Shown here one piece after another: positions 11,449-54,634 of a stretch of 64,000 nucleotides of DNA. This stretch comes from Cycloclasticus pugetii PS-1. GTDB lineage: Bacteria; Pseudomonadota; Gammaproteobacteria; Methylococcales; Cycloclasticaceae. A program made the translations under genes and the position numbers. The stretch spans positions 2,294,001-2,358,000 of the forward strand of contig NZ_ARVU01000001.1 in the NCBI RefSeq assembly GCF_000384415.1. Direction: 5' to 3'. Numbering within the stretch: position 1 is the first letter of the stretch; the number at the start of each line of letters is the position of its first letter. The notes beneath the pieces were generated by a model. It was not told the origin of the DNA and did no database searches. It saw only the letters and a program-made list of their open reading frames with translations.

Positions 11449-11451
11449 TCG

Positions 11452-12096: not shown

Positions 12097-12197
12097 GGTG
12101 AAATTCCAATCATTAATTTACACCAGCTTGCCGTCTTTATATGACATTAGCATGTCACCCTCATGACCGTTTAGCGAACTGTAATAGCTTTTAATTA

Positions 12198-13061
12198 CTA
12201 TCGAAACGTAGCTTTATGTAACAGCGGCGAACCCATTTTTATACACTCGCCCTGTCTAATGCCTTCGTTTATTACAAATTCGCTGGAGGCAAAAACTAAA
12301 ATAGTTGAGCCATGTTCAAAATAACCCATCTCATCCCCTTTGTTATAAAGGGCTGAGCAAGGCAAGACATTAGGTCCTTTATAGCGAAGATTCAGGGGGG
12401 CTGCTAAACAGTGAAACTGCATGCTAGCCACCAAAATAGCTGCAACGGGCACCAGCACAAGACACTCATCTTTGTGCCCTGTTTTTAACTCTATAAACGC
12501 TCGCTCATTTTTACAAAATAAGTTCTTAATCCGGGTCAGAGCAATTGGGTTTACATTCCATGTGTCACCCGAGATATATGTAACCTTATCTACCTCACAA
12601 TCGATGGGTGCATGAAAACGATGATACATCGTTGAGGTTAGCCTTAACGTTACATAACAGCCATTTTGTAGCCGTTTCTGCAGCGCCTTATCCGGAATTA
12701 AATCGGCAACGTGATAGGGAAAACCCTTCGCCTGGTAGACCACCCCATTATCGATCTTGCCATGACTACCAACAATGCCATCACAAGGGCTAACAACGCC
12801 TCCTTTGTACGTATCTATCGGCCTTACCCCTTCTTTTAGTTGGCGAATAAAGCACTCATGCAATGAATTAAAGCTATGTTTTTTTGCTTCGGAAAAGTCC
12901 AAATCGGGTGAAAAAATACGCCAAATACTGATGGATAAGCTTGTTAGCGTTGGGCTTTGTATCTTGCTGTACCAACCCATTAGGTGAGTGAAAAGTTTAC
13001 GGGGTATACGGTTTGTTAATAAGAAATTTAACCGTTCCATTCGCGTTAGCCTAGAAATCAT
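12198..13061 (-). CDS. psd: Phosphatidylserine decarboxylase
   Basis: About 287 residues. The C-terminal HGST motif (Ser near residue 252) is the self-cleavage site that yields the pyruvoyl cofactor. SPCDG, VTLRLTSTMYHRFHAPI and NER are conserved proenzyme features. The enzyme makes phosphatidylethanolamine at the inner membrane. An upstream TTG at 13070 is possible, but the ATG at 13061 is more plausible. It sits between the PHP-glycosyltransferase and the Mpo1-like gene rather than in the usual housekeeping context, so it may be a second, specialised copy or act on a related serine-containing lipid. The rest of the genome would decide. Confidence 0.88.
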   Translation of the reverse strand: MISRLTRMERLNFLLTNRIPRKLFTHLMGWYSKIQSPTLTSLSISIWRIFSPDLDFSEAKKHSFNSLHECFIRQLKEGVRPIDTYKGGVVSPCDGIVGSHGKIDNGVVYQAKGFPYHVADLIPDKALQKRLQNGCYVTLRLTSTMYHRFHAPIDCEVDKVTYISGDTWNVNPIALTRIKNLFCKNERAFIELKTGHKDECLVLVPVAAILVASMQFHCLAAPLNLRYKGPNVLPCSALYNKGDEMGYFEHGSTILVFASSEFVINEGIRQGECIKMGSPLLHKATFR

Positions 13062-13104
13062 CTGTCTCAAGCCGCACTAACCTTCAACGACATTCACTTT
13101 TTTA

Positions 13105-15780
13105 TTAATCGTTAAGGCCGAGGTTTGTCATAAATTCAGCCATTATTGGTTCCGCTTGATATTGCTGACATCTATTAAGGGCATTTTCTCGCATCGCCGC
13201 TTTATTAACATTGCTTGAAAAAAACTGCTCTATTTGCTCAACCATTTGCTGCTTATCTTCAACCAAAAATCCATTAATTCCATCTTCAATAATATCTTTG
13301 GGGCCTTTTGTATTGTATGCAATCACTGGCATGCCTTGGGTAAATGCTTCTAAAACAACATTTCCAAACGTATCAAAACGTGATGGGAACACTTTTAAAT
13401 CAAGCCCTGCATAAGCAGCTGCCATTGTTTGCTTATCCACCCACCCAAGGAAATTTGCCTCTGGCATTTGAACCTTTAATTCGTCTTCATCTGGCCCAGA
13501 CCCGGCTATCACAAAGCGAATATCTGGCAGCCTTTTTTTCAGTTCTTGATAAATAAACGGCAAATCGAATATGCCCTTTTCTTTGCTTAAGCGGCTGGCA
13601 AAAAGCAGCACCGGTGTTTCACTGTTGGCATCGTTAAACAGCTCTTCTTTTCTCAATGGCATGACTTGCATATCATCAAATTTCCCGACGTGATGTGCAG
13701 TTAAGTGCACCCGACTTTCGTCTAATTGCATATGGTGCCCAGTGAGCCATGACTGATGCTCCGTGTTAAGCACAAAAACACCTTCAAATTGCTTATAAAA
13801 GAAGCGAAGTGCACGCCTAACTCTATCTAATTCATGTTGCGTTAGGTCTGTGGTATTTTTAATAAACTCGACCCAGTCAGTGTGCATAAAAAAGAATGCC
13901 GGCACATTGAACATATGCTTAAGTACCAGTGCAACAATCGCCATAGGGCCTTCAGTTGAACAAATAATTCGGTCATAACCTCCTTCATAAAACACCTTCG
14001 CCACTTCCAGAAAATCAGGCACTCTAAGTTCTTGCTCACCAAACTTCCCAACACTAAACGTTGTTATTGGTTCAACAACATATAAATGCGCCTCTTCTTC
14101 AATATCAGTACTACAAACAAGGAAATCTATTGGCAAATCTGACTGCTGAATTTCCTTAAGTTTGGCTGACAGTGAATTAGAAACACCGTTTTTATCTCTG
14201 AGTGTATCGGTTAAATAAAGCGCACGTTTAGGATGTTGGTTACACCCTAAACGCTCTGAAAAGTCATTAAGGAATGATCTGTTTTGATATAACAATCGTG
14301 TACTAGCGAATGTTGCACTGAAGAGGACCATGCTCACTAACATAGGAAACGATAGATGGTCTAATAGCTCACCAATATTAATATTGCTGATGGAGTCTTG
14401 CTCTGGCTTGTCTTTATAAAACAGCGCCGTTAACTGGCTGGGAATTTCAAACTTACTGGTCAAATCCGCTGTAGAAAAGCTGTTTAACTGCTTACCCGAC
14501 CCAACCGATGACGTCTTTAGCCTCTGTACAATTAATAAACTTAGTTTTTTATAGAGCACCTGAACAGAGCTATTGACTGTATTCACAAAAACATTCGGCG
14601 AGCCGTTTTTACTATCTGCAATACGCGTTAAATGCTCGATACAAAATTTATAATCTTTTTTTACCTTCCAAGACAGCAGTTTGCCTGGTTTTTTACCTTG
14701 CAGCGCCTTATGAATAAATTTAAAAAAATTCTGAGCGTTCTTACTCTTTTTTAGCTCCAACAATAAGTTCGCAATAATAAAGCAGGCTACTTTATCTGAT
14801 GTTTCTCCTCGGTGAAAAAACAGTCTAAGTAAGCCTGGATCTTCTATTTTAACGGCGGCTTGTACAAAGTAGTCCAACAAGGCGATATTCAGTTTTTGAT
14901 TTTCTTCCACATAACCAAATGGCACGACACGGCCCTCAATTAACGCCTCCAAAGCTAACGCAGAAGGTTTTTCTGTTTTCAAGCGCTGCGCTAAGTTTGG
15001 CACATAGAGGTACGATCCACATTCGCCTGCAAACACCCCCATATGATCATCCGAGCCACCCGTTAATACTTTGGGTTTGTCAGGGTCAACAGCAAAGTCA
15101 CCGGGCGTTAAGCCGTGCTTTTCAGCATACATATTAATTTTTTCAGGCGTTAACGTTTTTACCCAGTTTAAGGTTAAAACACTTTGCCATAAATCTCGTT
15201 GACCATTGAGCACTTCATAACGCTGAAATATGACCGCTAATTTCTCGAATAAAGCCTGATCGATATTGTTATCACGGGTATACAAATAAAGCGGGTGAGG
15301 CAATATAACGGGTATATTTTGAGCAGCTGCGAACTTCAAGAATTGGTAAACATTTTCGCGTGTTTTATTAAGCTGTTTTTCTTGCTCTGCATTAAAACCA
15401 TACGCTAACACATGAACAAATAAATTATATTCAGGAAAATAGCAGGTGAATTCAGTACCCACCAGCACATCCTTCCCTTCAGCAATTAACTCCCAACATG
15501 ACCGAGCATTATTATGATTGGTTATCGTCACAACGTCGCAATCATTTTTATGTAAACATTTAACCAAGTTATCCGTCTTAAGCCATGTTTCTGGTAAGCC
15601 AAGGATTCTTCCCCAAAGTTCATCGGGCACATCACTATTGTGATCATGGCAGTGAAAATCAATCTTCAGACAGTTTTCGTAATCCAAGCCTTCTTGTGCT
15701 GTACTCAGGTACTCCCCAAACTCATCTTTTAATGACTGGCGAAAATCACTAATAACCGCATTCGATGTAAAGTCAATCAT
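13105..15780 (-). CDS. PHP-domain phosphoesterase fused to a GT4-type glycosyltransferase
   Basis: About 891 residues. The N-terminal third has the PHP metal-site pattern: H43-x-H45-x-H47 (DFHCHDH), TNHNN, GTEFTCY, PHPLY and GGSDDHMG. The C-terminal third (about 520-891) is a GT-B glycosyltransferase of the GT4 type: TLRDKNGVSNS, SRLSKEKGIFDL, AGSGPDEDEL, and the donor-site segment ending in EAF near residue 811. A helical linker joins them. I chose the ATG at 15780 because it overlaps the preceding stop as ATGA. A combined hydrolase and sugar transferase fits synthesis of a glycolipid or surface glycan; UDP-glucuronate from Ugd is a possible donor. Confidence 0.85.
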   Translation of the reverse strand: MIDFTSNAVISDFRQSLKDEFGEYLSTAQEGLDYENCLKIDFHCHDHNSDVPDELWGRILGLPETWLKTDNLVKCLHKNDCDVVTITNHNNARSCWELIAEGKDVLVGTEFTCYFPEYNLFVHVLAYGFNAEQEKQLNKTRENVYQFLKFAAAQNIPVILPHPLYLYTRDNNIDQALFEKLAVIFQRYEVLNGQRDLWQSVLTLNWVKTLTPEKINMYAEKHGLTPGDFAVDPDKPKVLTGGSDDHMGVFAGECGSYLYVPNLAQRLKTEKPSALALEALIEGRVVPFGYVEENQKLNIALLDYFVQAAVKIEDPGLLRLFFHRGETSDKVACFIIANLLLELKKSKNAQNFFKFIHKALQGKKPGKLLSWKVKKDYKFCIEHLTRIADSKNGSPNVFVNTVNSSVQVLYKKLSLLIVQRLKTSSVGSGKQLNSFSTADLTSKFEIPSQLTALFYKDKPEQDSISNINIGELLDHLSFPMLVSMVLFSATFASTRLLYQNRSFLNDFSERLGCNQHPKRALYLTDTLRDKNGVSNSLSAKLKEIQQSDLPIDFLVCSTDIEEEAHLYVVEPITTFSVGKFGEQELRVPDFLEVAKVFYEGGYDRIICSTEGPMAIVALVLKHMFNVPAFFFMHTDWVEFIKNTTDLTQHELDRVRRALRFFYKQFEGVFVLNTEHQSWLTGHHMQLDESRVHLTAHHVGKFDDMQVMPLRKEELFNDANSETPVLLFASRLSKEKGIFDLPFIYQELKKRLPDIRFVIAGSGPDEDELKVQMPEANFLGWVDKQTMAAAYAGLDLKVFPSRFDTFGNVVLEAFTQGMPVIAYNTKGPKDIIEDGINGFLVEDKQQMVEQIEQFFSSNVNKAAMRENALNRCQQYQAEPIMAEFMTNLGLND

Positions 15781-17456
15781 CGCTTCGCCTCTTTCACTAA
15801 CCTTTTTGCTGATACCGATTTCACCATATCCTTCAACATCCGCCTTTTTATCCATTTATTCGTTAATGCCGAATGCTGCCACCACCAGCCATCTTTTTTC
15901 ATCTTTAGGCCAGCCGATACGAAGTGTTTAATCACCTCAGCGAATTCCTCATCAGTAAAGTTATGGCTCATAATCAGCCTGCCTGTTCCAATCCAGCTAA
16001 GCAGGATGCCTTCCTCCCTGAGGTAATACTGGTACATCCAGTTATAGCGACTCGGTTGGGTATATAAAACAGTGAGAATAGAGCTGAGGTTGACCATTTT
16101 GACTGGCACATTCGCTTCCTTTAATGCTTGGTTCATCTGCTGCACTCTATCGTTCCAGACCTGCTCTAGCACTTGATATGAGCGTTGAATCTCTTCTGTT
16201 TGCAGTGCTTGTAAAAAAGCATCCATACTGGTCATAACGTACGGGTGTGAGTTAAACGTGCCACGCGCAAAAGACACATTCGCCGGCCGATCTTCTTTAA
16301 AACGCTGCATTAAATGATGCCTGCCACATAAAACACCCACCGGTAAACCGCCACCTACGGTCTTACCATAAGTAACCAAATCGGCCTCCACAGCAAAAAA
16401 ACCTTGCGCGCCTTTATGAGAGAGCCTAAACCCGGTAAATACCTCATCAAAAATTAATACAATGGAGCGCTCTTTACACACTTGCTGAAGTTTTTGTAAC
16501 CACTCGCTATACGCTGTCTTATCAAAGGCCGCCGCTCTTTCGCTATTAACCAACATAGCGTCACTTGAGGCATCTGAATTTGGATGCAGCCCTTGCAACG
16601 GATTAACCAACACACAGGCAATGTCACGTCGTGTTCGTAAAATACTCAACGTACGTTCACTCATATCACGTAATGTATAAACATCATTAGTTTTACGTTG
16701 GTTGCCAATGCCTGGCTGAACCCCATCCCACCAGCCATGATAAGCACCACAGAATCTAACTAAATATCGCTTACCGGTATGATAACGAGCCAAGCGTACC
16801 GCTTGCATAACTGCTTCTGTACCAGACATATGAAACGACACCTCATCAAGACCAGATATTCGCTTCAATTCTTCAACATTATTTTTAATTATTGGGTGAT
16901 AAGGCCCCAAGACAGGGCCAAGGTTTTGTGCGTTTTCGAACCCTTTTTTCAAGCAAGACTTATAAAAATCGTAGCCAAAAACATTCACCCCATAGGAACC
17001 GCTCAGGTCAACTCCCCAGCGACCATCGAGATCCTTCAGCATAATGCCTGAGGACTCAGTGACAATTGAGGCCGGTTTTATATGCTGACCAAGGTAGTTA
17101 CGATACGGATAGGGAACCCGGTATAAATTAGTAAAGCGTACATCCGATACACTGTCTTCTATACTGGCATAAAATCCGGTAGATTTTGGCGAATGGCAGG
17201 CTAAGCTTTCACTCAGTTGCTTAAAACCCTCTTTTCGTTGATTAACGACGGCTATTGGTGCGTCATCACTACTAAAAAACACCTCTTCATCGTAAGAAAA
17301 ATAAGGAACCCATTTGGCAATTCGCCTAGCCCATTTTGAATGTCCTCGAACAGAGGGGTGCTTAGCCCTAGAAAGCTTCAGTCGTGTTGAGACTTTTATT
17401 AAAAAGAAAAAGGATAATAGAGCAAGCGCAGTATAGAAGACATCAGTGTCAGGCAT
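15777..17456 (-). CDS. Membrane-anchored class III aminotransferase, GSA-aminomutase-like
   Basis: About 559 residues. Residues 7-21 form a hydrophobic N-terminal anchor, followed by about 80 residues of basic linker and then a PLP fold-type I domain resembling glutamate-1-semialdehyde aminomutase: SGTEAVMQAVRLAR, GAYHGW, IFDEVFTGFR, and the PLP lysine K365 in YGKTVGGG. HemL is about 425 residues and soluble, so the anchor and extra C-terminal basic tail mark a different enzyme. A TTG at 17489 would add 11 residues; neither start has a clear SD. It overlaps the PHP-GT gene by ATGA, so the two probably act together on a membrane substrate. Confidence 0.82.
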   Translation of the reverse strand: MPDTDVFYTALALLSFFFLIKVSTRLKLSRAKHPSVRGHSKWARRIAKWVPYFSYDEEVFFSSDDAPIAVVNQRKEGFKQLSESLACHSPKSTGFYASIEDSVSDVRFTNLYRVPYPYRNYLGQHIKPASIVTESSGIMLKDLDGRWGVDLSGSYGVNVFGYDFYKSCLKKGFENAQNLGPVLGPYHPIIKNNVEELKRISGLDEVSFHMSGTEAVMQAVRLARYHTGKRYLVRFCGAYHGWWDGVQPGIGNQRKTNDVYTLRDMSERTLSILRTRRDIACVLVNPLQGLHPNSDASSDAMLVNSERAAAFDKTAYSEWLQKLQQVCKERSIVLIFDEVFTGFRLSHKGAQGFFAVEADLVTYGKTVGGGLPVGVLCGRHHLMQRFKEDRPANVSFARGTFNSHPYVMTSMDAFLQALQTEEIQRSYQVLEQVWNDRVQQMNQALKEANVPVKMVNLSSILTVLYTQPSRYNWMYQYYLREEGILLSWIGTGRLIMSHNFTDEEFAEVIKHFVSAGLKMKKDGWWWQHSALTNKWIKRRMLKDMVKSVSAKRLVKEAKR

Positions 17457-17567
17457 ATGTGTAATTATTCGCAATAAAATATATCGCAAACATTAACACT
17501 CAAAAATGACAGCCTTGTTTCAGTTAGCTGACAAGCTTCTTACCAAATTACTAATTGCAGATATTTC

Positions 17568-19142
17568 CTAAGCCAAATCCCATGGCACCGACAGACGACC
17601 ATCTTTGAACATGGCTTGCATATCTTTTTTAAGCATTTTCCCCGTCAAGCCTTTTGGCAACTCGTCTACTAGCACGATATGTTTGGGCACTTCAAACTTT
17701 GCCATTCTTGCTTTACTAAATGCAACCATTTCATCGAAATCAAACGCAGCTTTATCTTTGGCAATAATTAACGCGACCACCGCCTCATCCCATTCAGGGT
17801 GTGGCACACCAATAACACCTACTTCAGCAACATTAGGATGTTCATCTAAAACATTTTCAACCATGCTTGGAAAAACATTAGCCGAGCCAGTAATAATAAG
17901 GTTATTTTTACGATCCGTTAGGTAAAGAAAGCCCTCATCGTCTAGATAGCCTAAATCATTAGTTCTGAGCCAACCCTTGTTAAGCACTTCTTTGGTTTGC
18001 TCCTCTAAATCCAAGTAACCACTCATTAAGGTATCAGATTTTAACCAAATTTCACCGCTAGTATTTGGCTCTAAAGCGACGCCATTATCATCACGAATTT
18101 CTATATCAAAATGTAATGCTGGCCGACCACATGAACGAAGAAGATGGTCCTCACCATTTAGACCTCTTTCAGTATCTTCTGGTCTCATAAAACAAATCCA
18201 ACCACCTGTGGTTTCGGTAACACCATACATTTGCATTAAATCACAGTTGAAGGTCTCAGCAGCTTTACGGATTAACTGTGGCGTTGTTGGTGATGAACCA
18301 TAGGTTATTAGTCGCACGGATGGGATTTTAATGTCCGTTTCTTCCATGATTTGAATCATCCGGCGCATCATCAATGGCACCATAATGGTTACCGTTACTT
18401 TCCTCTTATTAATATGTTCAAAGTATTGATCAACATTAAAGTCACCCTCTGGAAGCACTGATGTCATTCCATTAACTGTATTCATTGTTATGAGTACAAA
18501 GGTAATCCAAGCCGATGACGTGGGTGCATACCATACATCATCTGGCGTGAGTCCCATGTTTAACACCGTATTTATCATCGCGTCTTTAAGCGCATGCTGG
18601 GATAAAAGCACGCCTTTTGGCGAACCTGTGGTACCCGATGTATAACTGATGGCTGCCAAGTCATCGTTTTCAAGTACGGGCAGGTCAACCTTACCATCAC
18701 TTTTTGCCAACAACTCTTGATAGTCATAAGGCAGGTTGTGATCTCCACCATAACCAATCAATAAAACACCTTCGGATATCAATTGCTCGGCAACATCGCC
18801 CATCAATGGCACACAGTTAGCTTGTACTAATACTACTTTCGCTTTTGAGTTATGGATGACATACAACATTTCTTTAGGAGAATAGCGCCAGTTAACACCA
18901 ACCCGTGGCGCACCTAATTTTAAGCAGGCATGAAAAGCCTCATAAACTTCAATGTGCTCGTGAGACAAAATAGCGACCACATCGCCCTTGCCAATATTTT
19001 TGGTTTGTAAGGCTTTTGCAAACCGACACGCCCGCTCATTTAGCGTAGCCCAATCGATAGACCTTTCTCCTTCATAAAAAGCTATTCTTTTTGGCATCGC
19101 TTTCGCCGCACGAACCAGGTAATCTCTAACTAATGTTGTCAA
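17568..19142 (-). CDS. Acyl-CoA synthetase (AMP-forming)
   Basis: A 524-residue ANL-superfamily ligase: P-loop YTSGTTGSPKG, YGVTETTG, the hinge YLTDRKNN and the C-terminal catalytic Lys region KGLTGKMLKK. It activates a carboxylic acid to its CoA thioester with ATP in the cytosol. The start is TTG at 19142, supported by GAGGAG eight bases upstream that overlaps the end of the DUF35 gene. It is the last gene of the AlkB/RHO/thiolase-like operon. An aromatic or side-chain carboxylate is a likely substrate; the exact acid is unknown. Confidence 0.9.
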   Translation of the reverse strand: MTTLVRDYLVRAAKAMPKRIAFYEGERSIDWATLNERACRFAKALQTKNIGKGDVVAILSHEHIEVYEAFHACLKLGAPRVGVNWRYSPKEMLYVIHNSKAKVVLVQANCVPLMGDVAEQLISEGVLLIGYGGDHNLPYDYQELLAKSDGKVDLPVLENDDLAAISYTSGTTGSPKGVLLSQHALKDAMINTVLNMGLTPDDVWYAPTSSAWITFVLITMNTVNGMTSVLPEGDFNVDQYFEHINKRKVTVTIMVPLMMRRMIQIMEETDIKIPSVRLITYGSSPTTPQLIRKAAETFNCDLMQMYGVTETTGGWICFMRPEDTERGLNGEDHLLRSCGRPALHFDIEIRDDNGVALEPNTSGEIWLKSDTLMSGYLDLEEQTKEVLNKGWLRTNDLGYLDDEGFLYLTDRKNNLIITGSANVFPSMVENVLDEHPNVAEVGVIGVPHPEWDEAVVALIIAKDKAAFDFDEMVAFSKARMAKFEVPKHIVLVDELPKGLTGKMLKKDMQAMFKDGRLSVPWDLA

Positions 19143-19568
19143 TTAATGCTCCTCCCCATCTAATTTAAAATAAAGCAACTCGTTTTTTTTATCTATTTTT
19201 TTAAAGTGTGCTCTCACCGCTGTACCAACTTGATATGGCTGCCCATCACTCGCTACTATATGGCCCATAACTCGTGGACCTTCCGTTAATTCAACTAAGG
19301 CCACTGTGTAAGGTATTTTGTCATCGTAATAGGGGTGAAAACTACGGTGAAAAACCACGTAACTATATATAACCCCTGTGCCCTTAGCCTCAAACCATTC
19401 GAGTTCATTGCCACCACACTCATCACACACTTTTTGTGCAGGTGGTAGACTGGTTTGGCAGGACGAACAATGCTGAATAAGTAACTTATGTTGCTGCATT
19501 GCCTCATAATAAGGTTTTGCAATATCAACTACCGTTGGCCAAATAATATCTTCTTTTGGATATTCCAT
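19143..19568 (-). CDS. DUF35 / Zn-ribbon OB-fold protein, partner of the thiolase-like protein
   Basis: A 141-residue protein with a rubredoxin-like zinc ribbon, C34-x2-C37 and C48-x2-C51, followed by an acyl-CoA-binding OB fold (TGVIYSYVVFHR, GPRVMGHIV). DUF35 proteins bind thiolase-superfamily partners. Examples are ChsH2 with the retro-aldolase Ltp2 in steroid side-chain cleavage and BbsA with BbsB in toluene catabolism. Here it starts 8 bases after the thiolase-like gene, which strongly supports a complex. It is usually structural and substrate-positioning rather than catalytic. Confidence 0.88.
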   Translation of the reverse strand: MEYPKEDIIWPTVVDIAKPYYEAMQQHKLLIQHCSSCQTSLPPAQKVCDECGGNELEWFEAKGTGVIYSYVVFHRSFHPYYDDKIPYTVALVELTEGPRVMGHIVASDGQPYQVGTAVRAHFKKIDKKNELLYFKLDGEEH

Positions 19569-19576
19569 CGTGCCTC

Positions 19577-20740
19577 CTATCGCCCCATAACTAACGCCGC
19601 ATGGAACTGCATCCGTCCACCATAGCCAGTGACTAACATATTATTGAGTGTATTTAATTGGCGACCTTCTGCACGGTTATGTAATTGCATGACAGCTTCT
19701 GAGACCGCTGTCGCGCCTTGCATATAATAGCCAGATAGATGCCCCCCGCCAGTATTAACGGGTAATTGCCCACCCGGACCAATACCTTCTTCTGCAATAA
19801 ATTGTGCCGCCTTTCCTGGTTCGCAAAAACCGTACATTTCTAAATTTATTAAGGTGGAAATACTAAACGCATCATAAAATTCACAGGCATCAATATCATC
19901 TACCGTGACACCTGCCATCTTAAACGCTGTTTGTGCAGCCATTTTTGCACCCGTTTCTATTTCGGGCTGATAACCACGGCGATTGATATTACCTTTATGA
20001 CCTTGCCCCATTCCATAGATATAAGCGGGGTATTCTTTGGCCGCTTTTGCGGTTTCTACATCACTGACCACCACAGCAATTGCCCCATTGACAGGGTAAG
20101 CACAATCCAGCATCCGTAGTGGTTCAACGAGCCACGGTGATGCATGATGATCTGCCATCGTCATCGGTTTTTTTATTTTAGCTAGCGGATTAAGCCTTGC
20201 CCATTCTCGGTTTGCAATTGCTACTGCTGCAAGGTCATCAGTTGTTCTGTTGTATACCGCTAAATATCGTTGGGCAGCCATTGCATACGCGGCTATCGCG
20301 CTGTAAAAACCATTTGCGACCTCGGTTCCCAATTTACCCATCATCGGCATTGCGATTGCAAAGGATTCTGCGGCAGAACCACCTGGTTGCAAAGGGGTAT
20401 CTGCAAACACACACACCACTTTTTTAGCCAAGCCAGATTGAATCGCCATCGTTGCTTGCTGTAGTGTCTGGACCATTGAGCTACCCTCTGCTTCAACAAC
20501 ATTCAGCAAACTTAAATCCCTAAGGCCAGCATAATCCTGAAGGTCCATCGGCATTGCCGATAAATCTTCAATGGGGCTTTTATTAATCAGCAATCCATCA
20601 ATATCGTGATGCTTTAAGCCTGCATCGCTAATCGCCATACCAATTGCTTCAACTGCTAACTCCCATGAAGCCACCGTGTAATCGCGACGCAACTCAGTCA
20701 TCCCAAGGCCGGTAACGGCTGATAAAGGCTTCCTGCTCAT
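19577..20740 (-). CDS. Thiolase-superfamily protein lacking the catalytic Cys, retro-aldolase candidate
   Basis: A 387-residue lipid-transfer-type thiolase homologue. Where thiolases carry the nucleophilic Cys, residues 82-88 read VEAEGSS. Where they have the GHP histidine, residues 337-339 read GYY. The C-terminal Cys is also missing (TGYGGRM). Loss of these residues with tyrosine in place of the histidine is the signature of Ltp2-type aldolases, which cleave beta-hydroxyacyl-CoA by retro-aldol chemistry together with a DUF35 partner. The adjacent DUF35 and CoA ligase genes fit this. That it is an aldolase is inferred, not shown. Confidence 0.85.
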   Translation of the reverse strand: MSRKPLSAVTGLGMTELRRDYTVASWELAVEAIGMAISDAGLKHHDIDGLLINKSPIEDLSAMPMDLQDYAGLRDLSLLNVVEAEGSSMVQTLQQATMAIQSGLAKKVVCVFADTPLQPGGSAAESFAIAMPMMGKLGTEVANGFYSAIAAYAMAAQRYLAVYNRTTDDLAAVAIANREWARLNPLAKIKKPMTMADHHASPWLVEPLRMLDCAYPVNGAIAVVVSDVETAKAAKEYPAYIYGMGQGHKGNINRRGYQPEIETGAKMAAQTAFKMAGVTVDDIDACEFYDAFSISTLINLEMYGFCEPGKAAQFIAEEGIGPGGQLPVNTGGGHLSGYYMQGATAVSEAVMQLHNRAEGRQLNTLNNMLVTGYGGRMQFHAALVMGR

Positions 20741-20744
20741 CAGT

Positions 20745-21239
20745 CTAAATTAAGAAAGACAGTGTTGGTATAGGTTCAAGCCCATTCACTAAATTAACTT
20801 TCTTTAAGTGTATTTGAAAGCTATCTCCTTTTCGGCTAAGGATATATGTATACCGACCAGACCATATCCTAAAACTATGTACCGATTGAATAGAATATTC
20901 TGGTAAATAGAAATTTGCCTCTACCCTAAACTTGTCATCATTGTCGTTAAAGAACTCGTAATTTGAGATGACACGACGCATACCGGAAATAGGTACTTGG
21001 CTAAATCGGTTACCGGTATTGAGTTGCTTAACCCTTGTTGTTAGCCTCGAATAGTTATCGTATAAATGTGATGCCTTTTTCGCTGGATCGTCACCATCTT
21101 TGCGCGGCACCCAATAAACGGCGTCCTCTGCCCATAATTCATACCATGCCTGGTATTGTCCCTCATCAGCATACTTCGCCTCTTGAATAATAAAGGCTTC
21201 AAGCTCTTTGGTTACCTCAAATGCCACCTGCTTCCCCAT
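20745..21239 (-). CDS. Ring-hydroxylating dioxygenase, beta subunit
   Basis: A 164-residue RHO beta subunit: the N-terminal LEAFIIQEAKYADEGQYQAW helix is typical (EA..LDxxxxxxW in the family), followed by AVYWVPR, the arginine-containing strand MRRVISNYE and FRVEANF. It starts one base after the alpha stop, in the order alpha-beta. It serves as the structural partner of the alpha subunit at 21241-22482. It is distinctly diverged from the other beta subunits in the window. Confidence 0.85.
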   Translation of the reverse strand: MGKQVAFEVTKELEAFIIQEAKYADEGQYQAWYELWAEDAVYWVPRKDGDDPAKKASHLYDNYSRLTTRVKQLNTGNRFSQVPISGMRRVISNYEFFNDNDDKFRVEANFYLPEYSIQSVHSFRIWSGRYTYILSRKGDSFQIHLKKVNLVNGLEPIPTLSFLI

Positions 21240-21240
21240 G

Positions 21241-22482
21241 CTACTTTTCTCCCAACATTACTGAGCGATAGTGGTGCCAAAAACCTCTGTTTGACGTTTC
21301 ATCACTCATTCGCGACTCCTTAACACCATCATCTCTTACCGTTTCTCGATCCATTCCCCTACTTAGATCACACCAAGGTGTACCGGCTTGAAGCGCCTTT
21401 TGCGCGCGTTCAGCTATCGTTGCGTCATCTGCCAATAAAAAAGCAGCAGGGCCTAATGCGCCTTCGCTTTGTCTCAGTAACTTAAAGTTCAACTCTGGCA
21501 CCCCCTTTAAAAACATCGGCGTGCTCCATTGCACACAAGAGTTAACACTGGTCGGCTGGAAAATAACTATATTCATTTCTGCTAAAAATAAATTAGGGAA
21601 AATACAAGCATGTGGCGGCCCATCAAACAACCGCTTGTTGCCTTCTTCTTCGCCATATGCCGCGTGCATTTTTTCAACATATGATTTGGACTTTTCAACC
21701 GTTGAGCCCAGCCAATCAAGTGTATTGACATAGCCTGCGGCAAAATCAATTTCCGTGTGGCCATTGCCCCAGTCTCTGATCACCCCTTGGTTGGTGTCTT
21801 CTCCGCCCACAAATTCGTTATATTGGGAAGGAATAACTTGAACAAATGATTGATGAACATAGTTTACATGGTAACCATCCGTATCATTCTCGGGCAGCAT
21901 TTTCCAGTTTGCATCAAACTTTTGACGCACCCAACCACCTGTTAAATCTACCTCACCTTCTGGAGACAGGTTACAGGCCCGATCTATCAGCTGCTTACCA
22001 TTTCCCAAGTAATCATCAAAACTTATCGTTGGTTCGTTAAAGCTTGCAAAAACAAACCCCCGATAACTATCTGTAATTAATGTCTGTAACCCATGGTCTT
22101 TTTTCTCTTTAGTAAAGCCATCAGGATAAGGTACGTCTAACAAGTCACCATTTAAGCCAAAAACCCAACCATGGTATAGGCAAGAAAAATTGCGTTTATT
22201 GCCTTCCATTTCATTACATAAGTTATTGCCTCGATGCGCACAGCGATTCACCATTACATTCACTGTAGAATCTTTATCCCTGACCATGATCAATGCTGAG
22301 CGGCCTATATCCCTTGCAATAAAGTCGCCTGCTTCCTTGACTTCACTTTCATGCCCGACATAAAACCAGCTATTTTGAAAAATCTTTTCCATTTCATCAG
22401 CATAGATATCTTCTGATGTATATAAAGACCCATGAACCTTGTCCGATTGAATCAGGTGATTGTAATCTATGTTATTTACCAT
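21241..22482 (-). CDS. Ring-hydroxylating dioxygenase, alpha subunit
   Basis: A 413-residue catalytic subunit: Rieske ligands C81-x-H83 (CAHRG) and C101-x2-H104 (CLYHGW), iron site D202-x2-H205-x4-H210 (TDGYHVNYVH). The spacing is that of the naphthalene/biphenyl type. It is followed directly by its beta gene and lies downstream of the AlkB-like gene. With the ligase and aldolase candidate it suggests attack on an aromatic acid or alkyl-substituted aromatic. Electron carriers are not local. Confidence 0.92.
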   Translation of the reverse strand: MVNNIDYNHLIQSDKVHGSLYTSEDIYADEMEKIFQNSWFYVGHESEVKEAGDFIARDIGRSALIMVRDKDSTVNVMVNRCAHRGNNLCNEMEGNKRNFSCLYHGWVFGLNGDLLDVPYPDGFTKEKKDHGLQTLITDSYRGFVFASFNEPTISFDDYLGNGKQLIDRACNLSPEGEVDLTGGWVRQKFDANWKMLPENDTDGYHVNYVHQSFVQVIPSQYNEFVGGEDTNQGVIRDWGNGHTEIDFAAGYVNTLDWLGSTVEKSKSYVEKMHAAYGEEEGNKRLFDGPPHACIFPNLFLAEMNIVIFQPTSVNSCVQWSTPMFLKGVPELNFKLLRQSEGALGPAAFLLADDATIAERAQKALQAGTPWCDLSRGMDRETVRDDGVKESRMSDETSNRGFWHHYRSVMLGEK

Positions 22483-22545
22483 ATTGCTCTCCTATGTATG
22501 CCTTTGCACTGAAAAAGGCCTTTATTCCTTTCTTAATTTGTCGCT

Positions 22546-23748
22546 CTACTTCTCTGCTATAACCGCTCTATCAAGAAAACGCTCGGGCAAGGTATTAGGC
22601 AATGCATAAGGCACGATATCTGCTGTGTCATAAAACTCTTCAATAATTGGATGCATGATTTTTCTCCATAAAGGAGGAAACATCGTTACAAATAAGATAT
22701 TTAGGTAACCTAATGGTAAACGTGGTGCCTTATCCATCACCCTTAATATCTGATAAGGCCGCCCTACATTCGCGTGATGGTCTGAATGCCGATCAATTTG
22801 ACACATAAAAAAGCTACTAATAATCATACTGTCATCCCAAGCATGTTCTGCCCTTACTTTTTCATAGCTACCGTCTTCAAGCTGTTTACGCATCAAACCA
22901 TAGTGTTCTGCAAAGTCTGCTGTGGCTAATAGCAGCCTTGGGAAAAGATATTGCATAATAAATAACGGCAATGAAATCCAGCCAAAAAGATAAACAAGTA
23001 GTGAAAACCATGCGATTTGTGCAATAGTTATTTTTATCATTTTATTATCTAAACTTATCCAACTTGAACCCTTTCGGCCAAGGCGTTCCGCTTCTACTTT
23101 CCATGCAGTAATTGACTTTAATACTGTACTTCTAAGTGCAAACCTCCAAAAATTTTCACCATATGGGGACGTTGCAGGATCTAGTGGGGTCGCTACATGA
23201 ATATGATGATGGAAATTATGATAAACATAGAAATCAGCCATACTAATTGGCGTCATCAAGGCTTGACCCATAAAACGGTCAAACTGATTCCCATGATGAC
23301 ACAGCTCATGCCCTGGAGTTGCACCTGTTGCCGTAACAAAGGCCAAAGAAAGGGCTAAGAAAACCATTTCTGCTGTGCTAAGTGGGTAGTAGCTTACACC
23401 TAACACGGTGAACATTTCCATCGGCGTATTTGTTATCAATGAATAACAAAACAAAGTAATTAGAAACTGTATCGGGACATAGATCCAAAGCATAAAGCGA
23501 AAAAAAGAACTTTCCTCTAATTCTTTTTCCATCTCTTCTGGTGCATTAATAGGATCATCTCCTACAATTGGGTCAAGTATCATACAGATACCAAATACAG
23601 CAAGGGTTAACAAATACCAATACCCCCCACCTAAAAAATGAGCAATAACAGGTGTTGTAGAAAACAACAATATAGGGATTGTGGTATAGCGAGCGACTAT
23701 ACTAACTTTTCTTTTAATACTATCTGGGGCATTCATTTTGGGAAACAT
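22546..23748 (-). CDS. AlkB-family membrane di-iron hydroxylase
   Basis: A 400-residue integral membrane protein with the histidine boxes of alkane and xylene monooxygenases: HELCHH near residue 148, NFHHHIHVATPLDPA near 176, and RHSDHHANVGRPYQ near 318, plus AEHYGL. These coordinate two irons that hydroxylate alkyl groups using rubredoxin or ferredoxin electrons. No rubredoxin gene is nearby. It heads the leftward operon; the SD is GGAGAG. Methyl or alkyl side-chain oxidation before ring attack is a reasonable inference, but n-alkane activity cannot be excluded. Confidence 0.88.
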   Translation of the reverse strand: MFPKMNAPDSIKRKVSIVARYTTIPILLFSTTPVIAHFLGGGYWYLLTLAVFGICMILDPIVGDDPINAPEEMEKELEESSFFRFMLWIYVPIQFLITLFCYSLITNTPMEMFTVLGVSYYPLSTAEMVFLALSLAFVTATGATPGHELCHHGNQFDRFMGQALMTPISMADFYVYHNFHHHIHVATPLDPATSPYGENFWRFALRSTVLKSITAWKVEAERLGRKGSSWISLDNKMIKITIAQIAWFSLLVYLFGWISLPLFIMQYLFPRLLLATADFAEHYGLMRKQLEDGSYEKVRAEHAWDDSMIISSFFMCQIDRHSDHHANVGRPYQILRVMDKAPRLPLGYLNILFVTMFPPLWRKIMHPIIEEFYDTADIVPYALPNTLPERFLDRAVIAEK

Positions 23749-23815
23749 GTTCTCTCCTGGATCTCATTAATTTGCATTTATTTATACAATTGATTATAAC
23801 CAGTTAAACAAACTG

Positions 23816-23891
23816 AACGCTAGTTAGAAATAATCATTTTTTTAATGTAACAATTTTTCTTTAAACAACCTATTGATCTTAAACTAGCGTT
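23816..23891. promoter_or_regulatory. Pair of inverted 10-base operator candidates in divergent promoter
   Basis: AACGCTAGTT at 23816-23825 and its exact reverse complement AACTAGCGTT at 23882-23891 lie in the 197-base gap between the AlkB-like gene (leftward) and the hydrolase gene (rightward). One copy faces each gene: about 68 bases upstream of the first start and 55 upstream of the second. A dimeric regulator controlling both operons is likely. The regulator is not encoded nearby. Confidence 0.5.
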
Positions 23892-23945
23892 GTTAACTAT
23901 CTTTAGAAACACTATAACTTCAAACTTTTAGAAATAAGGAATGCT

Positions 23946-24794
23946 ATGCAAACATCAAACATCCAAACCGGTTCTTTTAATACTTTTTTAAATGAAACAG
24001 GAACCGATAAGGACACCAGTATTTTATTGCTACATGGTTCTGGTCCTGGTGCTAACGCCATGTCAAACTGGCAATATGCACTGCCTTTTCTAGCTGAGAA
24101 CTACCATTGCCTTGCACCAGATATTGCAGGTTTTGGCCTTAGTCAACATGACTGCCCACCCAATGGAACCAGCCACTGGATTGATATTTGGGTGCAGCAA
24201 CAAATAGATTTATTAGATGCTAAAGGGATTGAGCAAACACATATTGTCGGCAATTCCATGGGCGGTGGCGTTACCCTTCATTTACTTAACAGGCACCCTG
24301 AACGCTTTAAAAAAGCAGTTCTTATGGGCCCAGTAGGTGCTCCATTTGCCCCTACCGAAGGCCTCACAAAAGGGTGGGAGTTTTATAAAGACCCTTCCAA
24401 AGAGGCTTTAGAATACTTAATTACTAAATTTCTTTTTGACCCGAGTTTACTTGGCAATGATATCGCTAGCATTGCTGCTCAACGCTTCGATAACGTTATG
24501 AAAGATGAAGTACGCCTTCAGTTTGAAGCCATGTTTAGCGGTGGTACAAAAAAAGGTATTGATGCGTTTGTTTTATCAGACGACGAGTTAAATAATATTT
24601 CCCACCAAATGCTGGTCACCCATGCCCGAGAAGATTTTTTTATTCCTCTGAATAATGCATATCATTTAATAGATAGAATCCCTAATGCGCAATTGCATGT
24701 CTTTGACCATTGCGGCCACTGGGTTCAAATTGAAAAGAAAAAAGCATTTAATAATTTAACTAAACTATTCTTCGACGGCATGTTTGATGACTAA
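23946..24794 (+). CDS. Alpha/beta hydrolase of the meta-cleavage product hydrolase type
   Basis: A 282-residue alpha/beta hydrolase: oxyanion region HGSGPGANAMSNW at residues 30-42, nucleophile Ser104 in GNSMGGG, and the catalytic His in DHCGHW near 262. The GSGPGA-x-W pattern is that of BphD/DmpD-like C-C hydrolases, which cleave the ring-fission product from extradiol dioxygenases. No extradiol gene is adjacent; the nearest is at 53.7 kb. It is divergent from the AlkB/RHO operon with shared operator-like repeats, so coordinated expression is likely. Confidence 0.87.
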   Translation: MQTSNIQTGSFNTFLNETGTDKDTSILLLHGSGPGANAMSNWQYALPFLAENYHCLAPDIAGFGLSQHDCPPNGTSHWIDIWVQQQIDLLDAKGIEQTHIVGNSMGGGVTLHLLNRHPERFKKAVLMGPVGAPFAPTEGLTKGWEFYKDPSKEALEYLITKFLFDPSLLGNDIASIAAQRFDNVMKDEVRLQFEAMFSGGTKKGIDAFVLSDDELNNISHQMLVTHAREDFFIPLNNAYHLIDRIPNAQLHVFDHCGHWVQIEKKKAFNNLTKLFFDGMFDD

Positions 24795-24836
24795 CACCCA
24801 CTCTCATAACATCAATTAAACACTCGTTTAATTAAA

Positions 24837-24874
24837 CAATAAAGCCCAGACTTTCATCTGGGCTTTATTGTTTT
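24837..24874. terminator. Bidirectional intrinsic terminator
   Basis: A perfect 14-base stem (24837-24850 with 24857-24870) around the loop CTTTCA, followed by a T-run. It separates the convergent hydrolase and RHO alpha genes. The A-rich 5' side makes it usable in both directions. Confidence 0.88.
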
Positions 24875-24905
24875 AGAATTCATACCTCTTCATTTTATTC
24901 AATAC

Positions 24906-26156
24906 TTAAAAGCCCATCATCTCTCGATACCCTTGCCACATTGAACGAATCATTCCTTCCGTGACTAGATGCTTTGCTCCTTCAGGCTCTTTACCATCCA
25001 TCTCTATCACACTAGTGTATTCCCCATCCCGAACTATCGCTTTTTGACATAGCTCTGTTGATTCACCATCTTCCATTGAGATAAGTCCAGCAGGTCCAAT
25101 AAGGTTAAATTGCTTTAAACGAATATTTCTAAGCTCTTCAGTGTCGTCTTTATAACCAAAGTAAGTCCAGACTAACTCAAATTCATCCTTACCTTTTGGT
25201 AAGATCTGACGAAAAGCTAGGGTATTTTGAATTTGCTGCAGCACTAACGAAGGAAACATCGATAATATATCCAAGCTATGTCCGTCTTCAAACTCCTGCT
25301 GGCCTGCTAGTAAAGACTCATCTGCTAATGCATAATTTCCTTGCTGCATCGTTCTAAGGTTCTCTTTCTTAACATCGTCCAGAGCACTTTTCTTTTCCTC
25401 TGAACTCTTAACCCAAATTAAGCAGTGAACTTTATTATTTACGATTGATTCACCTTGTTGAGACGATCGATACAGCCCAAAAGTTGCATGAAAGAGGTGC
25501 AATAAACTTGCATGATAAGGGTCTTTGGTATTTTCAGCGTAGAACTTCCAATTCCCTTTAATATATTGCCGAGTTGTACCGAGTATTTCTATCGGCTTAT
25601 TTAGCAGTCGACGCATATGGTAGCTAACATCATCGCCCATATATTCTTCAATATCCGGCGTATCATCACTAAAGGTACCAAAAATCGCACCATGGTAATT
25701 AACCACACGGACCTTACGTAGACCGTGCTTTTTCTTATCAAAGTCTTTTGGCATGCCACCTTTGCCAGCGAGTCCACGCTGGAAGGGGACCCCATGAAGG
25801 TCACCCTTCGCATCATAAGCCCATTGGTGATATACGCAGGTGTAAACACCATCTTCAGACTTACCGTGACGCTCTCGACAAATCTCAGCGCCACGGTGAG
25901 CACAACGGTTAACCCAAGCATAGATTTCATTATCTTGCCCACGGGTAACCACAACAGGGGTATCACCAATATAGGTTGATTTGAAGCTACCTTTTTCTGG
26001 CAACTCTGCGTCAGCGGCTAAAAAATTCCACGTTGGGCCATTATAAATTTTCTCCTGCTCAAGGTCGTAAACTTCTTGATTATTAAACACCCAATAAGGC
26101 ACCGCCGTACAACCTGCATCTGCAGGCCACTTTAAACGATCAAGCATACTTCTCAT
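24906..26156 (-). CDS. RHO alpha subunit without adjacent beta gene, mosaic paralogue of 60246-61499
   Basis: A 416-residue Rieske oxygenase: C85-x-H87 and C107-x2-H110 with YHQW in place of the usual YHGW, and iron site D212-x2-H215-x4-H220 (KDPYHASLLH). It resembles salicylate/anthranilate-type alpha subunits. Residues 39-206 and a second block around 300-364 are almost identical to the paralogue 35 kb away even at DNA level; the segment between has diverged. It follows the RND gene by 63 bases, has the SD AAAGGAG and lacks its own beta gene. It may borrow the beta subunit encoded at 59749-60234. Confidence 0.92.
   Translation of the reverse strand: MRSMLDRLKWPADAGCTAVPYWVFNNQEVYDLEQEKIYNGPTWNFLAADAELPEKGSFKSTYIGDTPVVVTRGQDNEIYAWVNRCAHRGAEICRERHGKSEDGVYTCVYHQWAYDAKGDLHGVPFQRGLAGKGGMPKDFDKKKHGLRKVRVVNYHGAIFGTFSDDTPDIEEYMGDDVSYHMRRLLNKPIEILGTTRQYIKGNWKFYAENTKDPYHASLLHLFHATFGLYRSSQQGESIVNNKVHCLIWVKSSEEKKSALDDVKKENLRTMQQGNYALADESLLAGQQEFEDGHSLDILSMFPSLVLQQIQNTLAFRQILPKGKDEFELVWTYFGYKDDTEELRNIRLKQFNLIGPAGLISMEDGESTELCQKAIVRDGEYTSVIEMDGKEPEGAKHLVTEGMIRSMWQGYREMMGF
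25066..25256. repeat. Second high-identity tract shared with 61149-61339 (inverted)
   Basis: 191 bases matching the paralogous alpha gene in opposite orientation with about 9 mismatches by hand count. It encodes the C-terminal beta-sheet part around FRQILPKGKDEF. Confidence 0.85.
25539..26042. repeat. High-identity tract shared with 60363-60866 (inverted)
   Basis: 504 bases with about 8 mismatches to the other alpha gene by hand count, including long stretches with no synonymous change. Identity falls sharply at both ends. It encodes the Rieske domain and the lead-in to the iron site. Confidence 0.9.
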
Positions 26157-26219
26157 AAGAATACTCCTTTATTAAGCTATTGAAGAATAAGGCTTTAGAA
26201 CCTTCTGCCGCTAGCATTT

Positions 26220-28589
26220 TTAGTTACTTTCTTGCACCGTTCCTTCTCTGTCTTTAAGCGGATAAATGAAACTTGCCAGCGCCGGAATAAGAATAATAGC
26301 GCCCAACATATTCACGAAGAACATATACGCTAACAAGATACCCATATCTGCCTGAAACTTAAGATCTGAGAAGTACCAAGTTGCCACACCAATCGTCATC
26401 GTCACTGATGTAAAGACAACTCCTGTTCCCACCTCTTTTAACGATTCATAATACGATTTCTGTAACGACTCTCCCATTGTCATGTGAGCCCTCATCCGTG
26501 CGAACAAATAGATGCCGTAATCAACCCCTACGCCAACACCCATTGCTAATACAGGCAAGGTAGATACTTTCAAACCTATCCCTAAATAAACCATGACAAC
26601 GTTTGCTAAATAAGCAACTAGAGCCAAGGGTACAACAATACATATTGTTGCTCTGATAGACATAAATGTTACAAAGCAGAAAATACCCACTGCCGCAAAC
26701 AAAATAAGTTCTATTCGAGCTTGCGCTTTAGCCACAATTTCATTTGTTGCCGCCATGATGCCTGCATTACCCATCGCAGGTACAAAGTCGACATGCTCAT
26801 TTGTATTGAGCTCTCTGAAATTTTTGACTGCATCCATTACACGGTCTAATGTTTGCGCTCGATGGTCTGTAAGATAAATTGTTACCGGCATAATCGTACA
26901 ATCATTTGAAAATAATGCCTGAGACATCTCTACTCTGTAGATATTAGCCGATATCATTTTCTCATTCCGTGGGATACCCAAAAACTTAGGGTTCGCTTCG
27001 TAGTTACCAATATTACGCTCACGAATCACTTGAGACAGAGCCTTAACAGACTGCACGCCTTCAACATTTTGCATCTGCCAAACAAAGTCATCGATCGTTT
27101 GCATAATACTGAAATTAACACACGAACCTTTTTGATCGGCTTTTGCTAAGATCACCAATTCATCCAAGCCGACAGAAAAATTTTCCTGTATCGCATTAGC
27201 ATCCAAATTATATTGAGAATCTGGCCAGAACTCCGGTGCACCTGCTTCAACATCGCCGACAATCAATTGATCTTGAACTGATAAAGTGTAAACACTCAGG
27301 CCAAAGGCAAACACCAATACAATTGTTGCATACCGTCTATCTGTTAACTTTGAGAGCATTGCCCAAAAAGAATGGTCAGCGCCTTTAATACTTCCTTCAG
27401 CCCTTTTTAATTCCTTATCAGTCAATTTAATATACGACAATAAAATAGGCAGCATGATTTTATTGGTTAACAGCATCACCGCTACCCCAATACTAGCGAT
27501 TATTCCAAGCTCTCTAATGATAGGAATATCAATCAAGACAATAACGCCAAAACCTACTGCATCTGAAACTAGTGCTGTAGCACCCGGTATAAATAACTTA
27601 TAAAAAGCATGACGTGCCGCACCGACCGAATCTTCGCCATTAACAACGCCAATCCGCCAAACATTGGTCATTTGAATTGCATGACTAACGCCGATAGCTA
27701 GAATTAAAAACGGAACCAGTATTGACATAGGGTCAACACCGTAACCTAATATTTTGACCAACCCCAGCTGCCAACTGACAGAAATCAATGCTGTCGCAAT
27801 CACTGCCAGCGCCAGTTTCATTGAGCCTGCAAAAAAGTGTAGCAAAATAAAGGTAATGATTAATGTAATAACAAAAAAGCTAATTACGCCTTCTGCACCA
27901 TCAATCACATCGCCTATGAATGGCGCAAAACCAATAATATGAATAGCGGTTTCTTCTGTTTCATAAGTCGCTCTGATTTTGTCTAATTTTTCAGCAAACA
28001 ACTCATAGTCAATTTTTTCCTTTGTAATCGGATCAACTTCGACCAAATCGGCAATCACCAAAGCGCCCGATAGATCCTTCGCAACTGTTTTACCTATTTC
28101 AGAAGACTTAAAAAGATTACTTTTAACCTCTTCAATACGTTCAGGTGTTGCAATAAAGTCGGCGGCTACGATTCTTGAGCCCGTAAACCCTTCTTCACTA
28201 ACAGCGACATAGTTAACGTTTGGAGTAAACAATGAGGTTACGGTCCGCGCGTCAATACCATCCATCACTAAGACTTCAGACGTGATGCCTTCCAACACGG
28301 TAAAAAACTCGGGCGTAAACATCTCACCATCTTTATTCTCTACAAAAATGGTAATACGGTTTGCGCCACCAAATTCATCACGGTAATTTGTGAAGGTTTT
28401 CATGTACGGGTGTGACAAGGGGATAGCCTTATCAAACCCTGGAGACAACTGTTGATTGAACCCTTGATAGGATAAAAATACTGTTACCAATAGACCAAGA
28501 GTTAAGAATAATAAACGATGCTTCAATAAAGCATCTGCCATAAAATCAGAAATATTATGCACTAAGGTTGATTCATGTTTAATACTCAT
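26220..28589 (-). CDS. RND superfamily (MMPL-type) transporter
   Basis: A 789-residue inner-membrane protein with an N-terminal span, a large periplasmic loop, a block of membrane segments, a second loop and a second block, the usual RND duplication. Segments such as DPMSILVPFLILAIGVSHAIQ and GVGVGVDYGIYLFAR carry the Asp residues of transmembrane segments 4 and 10 used for proton coupling. Its start overlaps the stop of the YCF48-like gene (TAATG). With DUF1302 and DUF1329 it forms a module often found beside hydrocarbon, steroid or terpene catabolism. Movement of hydrophobic molecules is assumed; the direction is unknown. Confidence 0.9.
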   Translation of the reverse strand: MSIKHESTLVHNISDFMADALLKHRLLFLTLGLLVTVFLSYQGFNQQLSPGFDKAIPLSHPYMKTFTNYRDEFGGANRITIFVENKDGEMFTPEFFTVLEGITSEVLVMDGIDARTVTSLFTPNVNYVAVSEEGFTGSRIVAADFIATPERIEEVKSNLFKSSEIGKTVAKDLSGALVIADLVEVDPITKEKIDYELFAEKLDKIRATYETEETAIHIIGFAPFIGDVIDGAEGVISFFVITLIITFILLHFFAGSMKLALAVIATALISVSWQLGLVKILGYGVDPMSILVPFLILAIGVSHAIQMTNVWRIGVVNGEDSVGAARHAFYKLFIPGATALVSDAVGFGVIVLIDIPIIRELGIIASIGVAVMLLTNKIMLPILLSYIKLTDKELKRAEGSIKGADHSFWAMLSKLTDRRYATIVLVFAFGLSVYTLSVQDQLIVGDVEAGAPEFWPDSQYNLDANAIQENFSVGLDELVILAKADQKGSCVNFSIMQTIDDFVWQMQNVEGVQSVKALSQVIRERNIGNYEANPKFLGIPRNEKMISANIYRVEMSQALFSNDCTIMPVTIYLTDHRAQTLDRVMDAVKNFRELNTNEHVDFVPAMGNAGIMAATNEIVAKAQARIELILFAAVGIFCFVTFMSIRATICIVVPLALVAYLANVVMVYLGIGLKVSTLPVLAMGVGVGVDYGIYLFARMRAHMTMGESLQKSYYESLKEVGTGVVFTSVTMTIGVATWYFSDLKFQADMGILLAYMFFVNMLGAIILIPALASFIYPLKDREGTVQESN

Positions 28590-29557: not shown

Positions 29558-29584
29558 AATTATTACCTATAAAATTCAAAAAAA

Positions 29585-29613
29585 GACCGAAGCTAAACTG
29601 TCTAGCCTCGGTC
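29585..29613 (-). terminator. Intra-operon hairpin between DUF1329 and YCF48-like genes
   Basis: An 11-base stem with one G-U-type mismatch (29585-29595 with 29603-29613), 7-base loop. Reading leftward, it is followed by a U-rich stretch from the A-run at 29574-29584. It probably attenuates transcription so that the two outer genes are made in excess over the YCF48/RND pair. Confidence 0.65.
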
Positions 29614-29646
29614 CTAATCTAATCATTTAAAACAACGCTGCGCTTC

Positions 29647-31107: not shown

Positions 31108-31117
31108 CCTATCTCCT

Positions 31118-31141: not shown

Positions 31142-31160
31142 TTATTTTAATTAACAATAT

Positions 31161-54589: not shown

Positions 54590-54634
54590 TTGTTAAATCC
54601 TCTTATTTTAGTTTTAAAACTTACCGCTTATCGA

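Follow-up and report, generated by a model that had tools for sequence, protein, structure and literature searches.

The two minus-strand genes at 19143–20740, which encode a thiolase homologue and a DUF35 protein, very probably specify a retro-aldolase of the IpfD–IpfE type, predicted to remove the side chain of aryl-acyl-CoA esters. What annotation calls a 'thiolase' gene pair would then be a probable aryl side-chain aldolase. The case is built from our own evidence on homology, synteny, fold, loss of cysteine and conservation of a tyrosine pair, and from published evidence on what the homologous ipf operon catalyses and on how the tyrosines act in TcLtp2; from these we infer what the window protein does, which substrate it takes and the part played by AlkB. 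The original prediction, that the CoA ester of an aromatic side chain undergoes aldol cleavage, matches the role reported for the homologous ipfABDEF (PMC9195938, PMC6063337), and its retro-aldolase reading is strengthened by the place of the protein among Cys-less aldolases such as Ltp2 and Sal, and not among active thiolases, and by the retention of both catalytic tyrosines of TcLtp2. That prediction named neither ipfABDEF nor its earlier listing in Cycloclasticus.

The presence of the ipf gene cluster in Cycloclasticus is already known and is not new here, because a 2018 review listed ipfABDEF in Cycloclasticus zancles 78-ME, C. pugetii PS-1, P1, PY97M and DSM 27168, together with several bacteria outside the genus (PMC6063337). 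The Cycloclasticus listing was repeated in PMC10004696, where ibuprofen use by those strains is given as not known. The 2018 review mentions neither alkanes nor an alkane gene and, in the text excerpted, gives no active-site residues (PMC6063337), and a 2024 paper notes that the literature nowhere states explicitly which residues form the active site of IpfD and IpfE (PMC11347016). The literature that we searched yielded no active-site assignment for IpfD-type proteins, no constant linkage of AlkB and a meta-cleavage hydrolase in Cycloclasticus, no protein-level activity of IpfD itself and no enzyme activity of the window's IpfD homologue. The likely additions of our study are the probable catalytic residues and the constant alkB linkage of the Cycloclasticus ipf cluster.

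Gene string and its match to ipfABDEF

The window (the whole stretch of 64,000 nucleotides that was analysed) belongs to a genome of 2.38 Mb in one contig. On its minus strand, the gene order is AlkB-like hydroxylase, Rieske oxygenase alpha subunit, beta subunit, thiolase homologue, DUF35 protein and acyl-CoA ligase (Table 1), with a gap of 63 bases downstream of alkB and gaps of at most 8 bases elsewhere; the ligase has a TTG start immediately 3' of the ipfE stop. Pfam searches bear out the setting that had been read from the letters, finding both the DUF35 zinc-ribbon gene and the CoA ligase downstream of the thiolase homologue and the genes for the two oxygenase subunits and the AlkB-like protein upstream. 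Both the Rieske motif and the His205/His210 iron-ligand motif are found in the IpfA homologue, and with its histidine boxes HELCHH, HNFHHH and RHSDHH, the first gene of the string is, by its sequence, a genuine member of the AlkB family. A promoter/terminator scan of 17400–26300 gave no excess over shuffled sequences (16 versus 22.7 and 8 versus 8.1, respectively), and we therefore make no claim on regulation.

Table 1. Coordinates of the gene string and of the residues discussed in the text (window positions; identities are to the pIBU218 proteins)
Feature	Position	Strand	Evidence
IpfF homologue, acyl-CoA ligase	17568..19142	-	AMP-binding 1.7e-75; 44% identity
IpfE homologue, DUF35 partner (zinc ribbon + OB fold), 141 aa	19143..19568	-	OB_ChsH2_C 5.8e-19, zf-ChsH2 4.6e-07; 33% identity (part of length)
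Intact Cys4 zinc ribbon, Cys34, 37, 48, 51	19416..19469	-	
IpfD homologue, Cys-less thiolase-fold protein, proposed retro-aldolase catalytic subunit, 387 aa, ATG start	19577..20740	-	Pfam Thiolase_C_1 9e-38; 48% identity
His380, family-invariant	19601..19603	-	84/84
GYY, residues 337–339; Tyr339 proposed catalytic acid (TcLtp2 Tyr344)	19724..19732	-	
YDAF, residues 289–292; Tyr289 proposed catalytic base; Ala291 where SCP2 thiolases/Sal carry Cys	19865..19876	-	
VEAEGSS, residues 82–88; Gly86 at thiolase nucleophilic-Cys position	20477..20497	-	Alignment
IpfB homologue, ring-hydroxylating oxygenase beta subunit	20745..21239	-	PF00866 1.3e-24; 41% identity
IpfA homologue, Rieske oxygenase alpha subunit	21241..22482	-	PF00355, PF00848; 53% identity
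AlkB-family membrane hydroxylase, first gene of string	22546..23748	-	PDB AlkB 8f6t 4e-65, 8sbb 2e-62
Divergent meta-cleavage-product hydrolase, BphD/HsaD type	23946..24794	+	HsaD 186 bits, BphD 151 bits

When plasmids were searched at the protein level, a match came from pIBU218, which belongs to the ibuprofen degrader Rhizorhabdus wittichii MPO218. The window reproduces the order of its ipf genes on one strand, from the oxygenase alpha and beta subunits through the thiolase-like and DUF35 proteins to the CoA ligase, and the five predicted products thus match ipfABDEF, the upper-pathway operon of ibuprofen degradation, in both order and homology. In the ipf route, IpfF ligates CoA, IpfAB with electron carriers form a 1,2-cis-diol and IpfDE carry out a retro-aldol cleavage; from ibuprofen, the operon yields 4-isobutylcatechol and propionyl-CoA, and an ipfD insertion mutant lost growth on ibuprofen (PMC9195938). 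Sphingomonas Ibu-2 likewise turns 2-phenylpropionic and tolylacetic acids into catechols with the side chain removed, according to the 2018 review (PMC6063337).

The surroundings of the string are rich in further genes. Beside the operon, window 10273–17489 carries a run of genes for a UDP-glucose dehydrogenase-like protein, a phosphatidylserine decarboxylase, a 916-aa protein resembling, on inspection by eye, a fusion of PHP and glycosyltransferase parts, and a class III aminotransferase of the HemL type. The operon's oxygenase alpha subunit has 21 matching places in the genome, seven further ones being within the 64-kb window, and some AndAc-like alpha subunits have no obvious beta gene alongside (e.g., 24906–26156). 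A second catabolic cluster at window 53693–58963 holds a BphC-type extradiol dioxygenase (above the NCBIfam cut-off), an HcaF/HcaE-like oxygenase beta and alpha pair, an AndAc-like oxygenase alpha and a PdxA-like dehydrogenase.

Active site, fold and family of the thiolase-like protein

The absence of the catalytic Cys, noted earlier from VEAEGSS at residues 82–88, is exact: the nucleophilic Cys of the active thiolases 6esq and 7yvy aligns with Gly86 in both the HMM alignment and MAFFT. Similarly, the GHP His is replaced within GYY as predicted, its slot falling on Tyr338 in the HMM alignment and on Tyr339 in MAFFT, an ambiguity of one residue. Together with the Cys of the HDCF motif, all three residues that mark a catalytic SCP2-type thiolase are thus replaced. 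What the protein retains are Tyr289 and Tyr339, which pair in the alignment with Tyr294 and Tyr344 of TcLtp2, the catalytic base and acid of that enzyme, respectively; in CtSal, Tyr302 and Cys304 do the work, and Gln stands in for the second Tyr (PMC12329534). The oxyanion-hole His296 of Ltp2 is replaced by Ala291 in the window protein (YDAF, not YDHF), and the stabilisation of the enolate must therefore differ from that in Ltp2; with YDHF lacking, the protein would work like Ltp2 but is not classed as Ltp2.

Residues were counted over 84 full-length family members, 36 of them linked to oxygenase genes and 48 unlinked, from a non-exhaustive homologue sample that consisted of the best 80 of 406 reachable by two peptide patterns and of five plasmid loci. 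Tyr289, Tyr339 and His380 are unchanged in all 84; at position 86, 82 members carry Gly and two carry Ala. Position 291 is A, P, S or N in 36/36 oxygenase-linked homologues and C in 48/48 unlinked ones, a split that reflects few evolutionary events and not 84 independent ones. In other homologues that align at His380, the counterpart is Gln (CtSal among them) or Ala, and the aligned stretch of TcLtp2 has no counterpart. Tyr289, Tyr339 and the loss of Cys at 86 and 291 are the residues by which Ipf-type enzymes may be recognised and tested.

In structural comparisons, the AlphaFold model of the IpfD homologue (pLDDT 89.7) has as its top fold match 6ok1, the Ltp2–ChsH2(DUF35) aldolase (TM 0.87), and as its second the Sal–Shy(DUF35) aldolase, with thiolases ranking lower. 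The comparison proposed at the outset, against Ltp2–ChsH2 and BbsAB, places Ltp2–ChsH2(DUF35) best at 31% identity and BbsAB (7pxp) at 21%. Aldolases and thiolases are separated by residues, not by fold alone, and the low identity to the characterised Ltp2, 31% in the structural alignment, counts against our reading. The DUF35 gene adjoins that of the thiolase homologue, and the best PDB matches of its protein are ChsH2(DUF35) 6ok1_B and 9myr_B, the two aldolase partners. The zinc-ribbon cysteines, all four kept in the window protein, are gone from IpfE of pIBU218 (L003:10177-10575) and of Paraburkholderia pBN3 (L004:16192-16566); the zinc site is therefore missing in some members of the family.

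The maximum-likelihood tree for the thiolase-like protein (91 proteins) places all 36 oxygenase-linked homologues in a single clade (100/99), inside which the Cycloclasticus branch stands apart, and the 48 without oxygenase neighbours on the opposite side (92/96). Steroid aldolases and thiolases fall outside both groups; Ltp2 sits on a long branch, whose attachment to the Ipf family is weak on one support measure (97/50). Clustering with active thiolases, which would have spoken against an aldolase, is not seen, the protein being parted from 6esq and 7yvy. The unlinked sister family (48 loci, L039-L106 and L006) is mostly from Chloroflexota, with some Actinomycetota and Acetobacteraceae, and its thiolase-like genes nearly always adjoin a DUF35 gene; for two Chloroflexota relatives lacking oxygenase genes, the gene context revealed no clear pathway. 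As its proteins carry Cys at 291, the Sal-type catalytic position, and both Ltp2-type tyrosines, the family may stand between the two types of aldolase known so far. The genome of the window also has a second Cys-less thiolase homologue (G000:C1:1225698-1226810, L002), 34% identical and accompanied by a DUF35-like gene; it has YDAF, carries His at the Tyr339 position and groups with the uncharacterised structure 4u4e.

Proposed reaction, its rivals and the possible role of AlkB

In the reaction that we propose, IpfF would convert an aryl-acetic or 2-aryl-propionic acid into its CoA ester, and IpfAB would place a cis-diol across the side-chain-bearing ring carbon and its neighbour (ipso-dioxygenation), creating a tertiary alcohol beta to the thioester. 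This is the arrangement that Ltp2 cleaves at steroid C17, and it fits the shared tyrosine pair. With the DUF35 protein as its cap, the thiolase-fold subunit would then split the side chain from the ring: Tyr289 would deprotonate the tertiary alcohol, the acyl-CoA would depart as an enolate, Tyr339 would protonate the enolate to acetyl- or propionyl-CoA, and the remaining ring ketone would rearomatise to a catechol. Overall, an aryl-acyl-CoA cis-dihydrodiol would give a catechol and acetyl- or propionyl-CoA. Extradiol cleavage of the catechol would lead to the divergent hydrolase as a probable step of the lower pathway, and the linkage of this hydrolase fits a catechol product; the gene string itself has no extradiol dioxygenase, candidates elsewhere including 53693–54589.

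The name given by most annotation models, thiolase or acetyltransferase, is understandable from the fold, and one could imagine a true thiolase, active in beta-oxidation or a pathway akin to it, working with an alternative nucleophile, for which Cys213, kept in 84/84 members, might seem to speak. We consider this highly improbable and reject the canonical thiolase: the protein has other residues in place of the nucleophilic Cys, of the second Cys (291) and of the GHP His, the oxygenase-linked homologues never have Cys at 86 or 291, Cys213 is found in the aldolase TcLtp2 as well, the neighbours form no beta-oxidation set, and the tree sets the protein apart from 6esq and 7yvy. The same evidence upholds the original view that this is not a beta-oxidation thiolase. 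That the top PDB matches are steroid aldolases and that the hydrolase scores best to HsaD would suit a steroid or bile-acid side-chain aldolase, Ltp2 or Sal proper, acting on steroid CoA esters, yet the gene string contains no hydratase (ChsH1/ChsH2 or a Shy MaoC domain), the DUF35 protein stands alone, and the hydroxyl would come more simply from the adjacent Rieske oxygenase. As the protein also branches within the Ipf clade and not with TcLtp2 or CtSal, and the hydrolase stays under the NCBIfam cut-offs, reaching only 186 of 400 bits for HsaD and falling under the BphD cut-off too, we reject this origin as extremely improbable.

The remaining doubt concerns the substrate, and here the rival is a variant of our explanation and not its opposite: an aldolase of the same kind may act on another dihydroxylated CoA ester, polycyclic aromatic or terpenoid, supplied via AlkB. 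Cycloclasticus lives on hydrocarbons, AlkB always adjoins, and the separate branch and the 33–53% identity to the ibuprofen enzymes leave room for such a shift; all five enzymes, however, match the arylacetate set in order and the other substrate has no direct evidence in its favour, and we regard it as rather unlikely. The competing phenylacetate epoxidase route is out, as PaaA and PaaC are absent from the window's genome and therefore no ring-epoxidation route competes for phenylacetyl-CoA.

The IpfD-type gene is present in 10 of 18 Cycloclasticus genomes, the window's included, at 69–100% identity and, as far as the contigs reach, in the same order at every copy, and the string is therefore not a chance arrangement. 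The alkB gene adjoins ipfA in all 10 Cycloclasticus loci, whereas the 30 oxygenase-linked loci of the tree from elsewhere lack this neighbour within the flanks fetched; the divergent hydrolase is kept in 9/9 Cycloclasticus loci that reach far enough. In another gammaproteobacterial family, three genomes possess ipfABDEF with no adjacent alkB in the regions read, and two of the three carry a 46–52% identical AlkB elsewhere. The second oxygenase (24906–26156) and the MMPL, YCF48, DUF1329 and DUF1302 genes vary among Cycloclasticus loci; in the window, the latter stand in series at 26220–32861 and are perhaps a set for the uptake of hydrophobic substrates.

The constant adjacency of AlkB and a meta-cleavage hydrolase hints at a hydrocarbon-derived substrate, and it is from this adjacency only that we infer a supply of the acid from an alkyl-arene by the AlkB-type hydroxylase; the gene string has no genes for alcohol or aldehyde oxidation. 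Extending this, the Cycloclasticus ipf-type operon could tentatively be seen, though we hold it for somewhat doubtful, as a dedicated hydrocarbon side-chain pathway and not an ibuprofen pathway. AlkB would hydroxylate the terminal carbon of the ring's alkyl group, oxidation and possibly chain shortening would lead to an arylacetyl- or 2-arylpropionyl-CoA, and IpfAB and IpfDE would remove the side chain and leave a catechol. If true, this would be a route independent of Paa and would give the enzyme type of ibuprofen degraders a natural context, and oil metagenomes with signals of 'ibuprofen-CoA dioxygenase' may reflect the use of hydrocarbons, not drug pollution. Caution is due in reading ipf-type genes in marine oil samples as ibuprofen use (compare PMC4656828). 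As a constant neighbour, AlkB points to a natural role, open to testing, for enzymes that owe their name to a synthetic drug.

Comparison with known systems

The closest system is ipfABDEF of Ibu-2 and of pIBU218 in MPO218, alike in the five genes, their order and orientation and the homology of each; unlike the pIBU218 operon, the window's cluster is chromosomal, comes from a marine hydrocarbon degrader, shares only the 33–53% identities given above, has alkB directly upstream and a divergent hydrolase, and encodes an IpfE whose Cys4 zinc ribbon is intact. The Cycloclasticus ipfABDEF clusters listed in PMC6063337 agree in genus and cluster and are essentially the same finding. Among the aldolases, TcLtp2–ChsH2(DUF35) (6ok1) shares the lack of the nucleophilic Cys, the thiolase fold, the DUF35 partner and the Tyr pair, and its chemistry on a tertiary beta-hydroxy-acyl-CoA is analogous to that proposed for the window protein; it differs in its steroid substrate, in a hydroxyl that comes from a hydratase, and in YDHF with His296 in place of YDAF. 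The bile-acid aldolase CtSal–CtShy(DUF35) (9myr) has the thiolase fold, Gly for Cys, the first Tyr and a DUF35 partner in common with the window pair, but uses Tyr302–Cys304 and has Gln at the second Tyr, whereas the window protein keeps that Tyr and has Ala for Cys. BbsAB, the benzoylsuccinyl-CoA thiolase (7pxp), resembles the pair in thiolase fold and DUF35 but is a thiolase by name and stands further off in structure, and its NCBIfam model gives 84 bits against a cut-off of 750.
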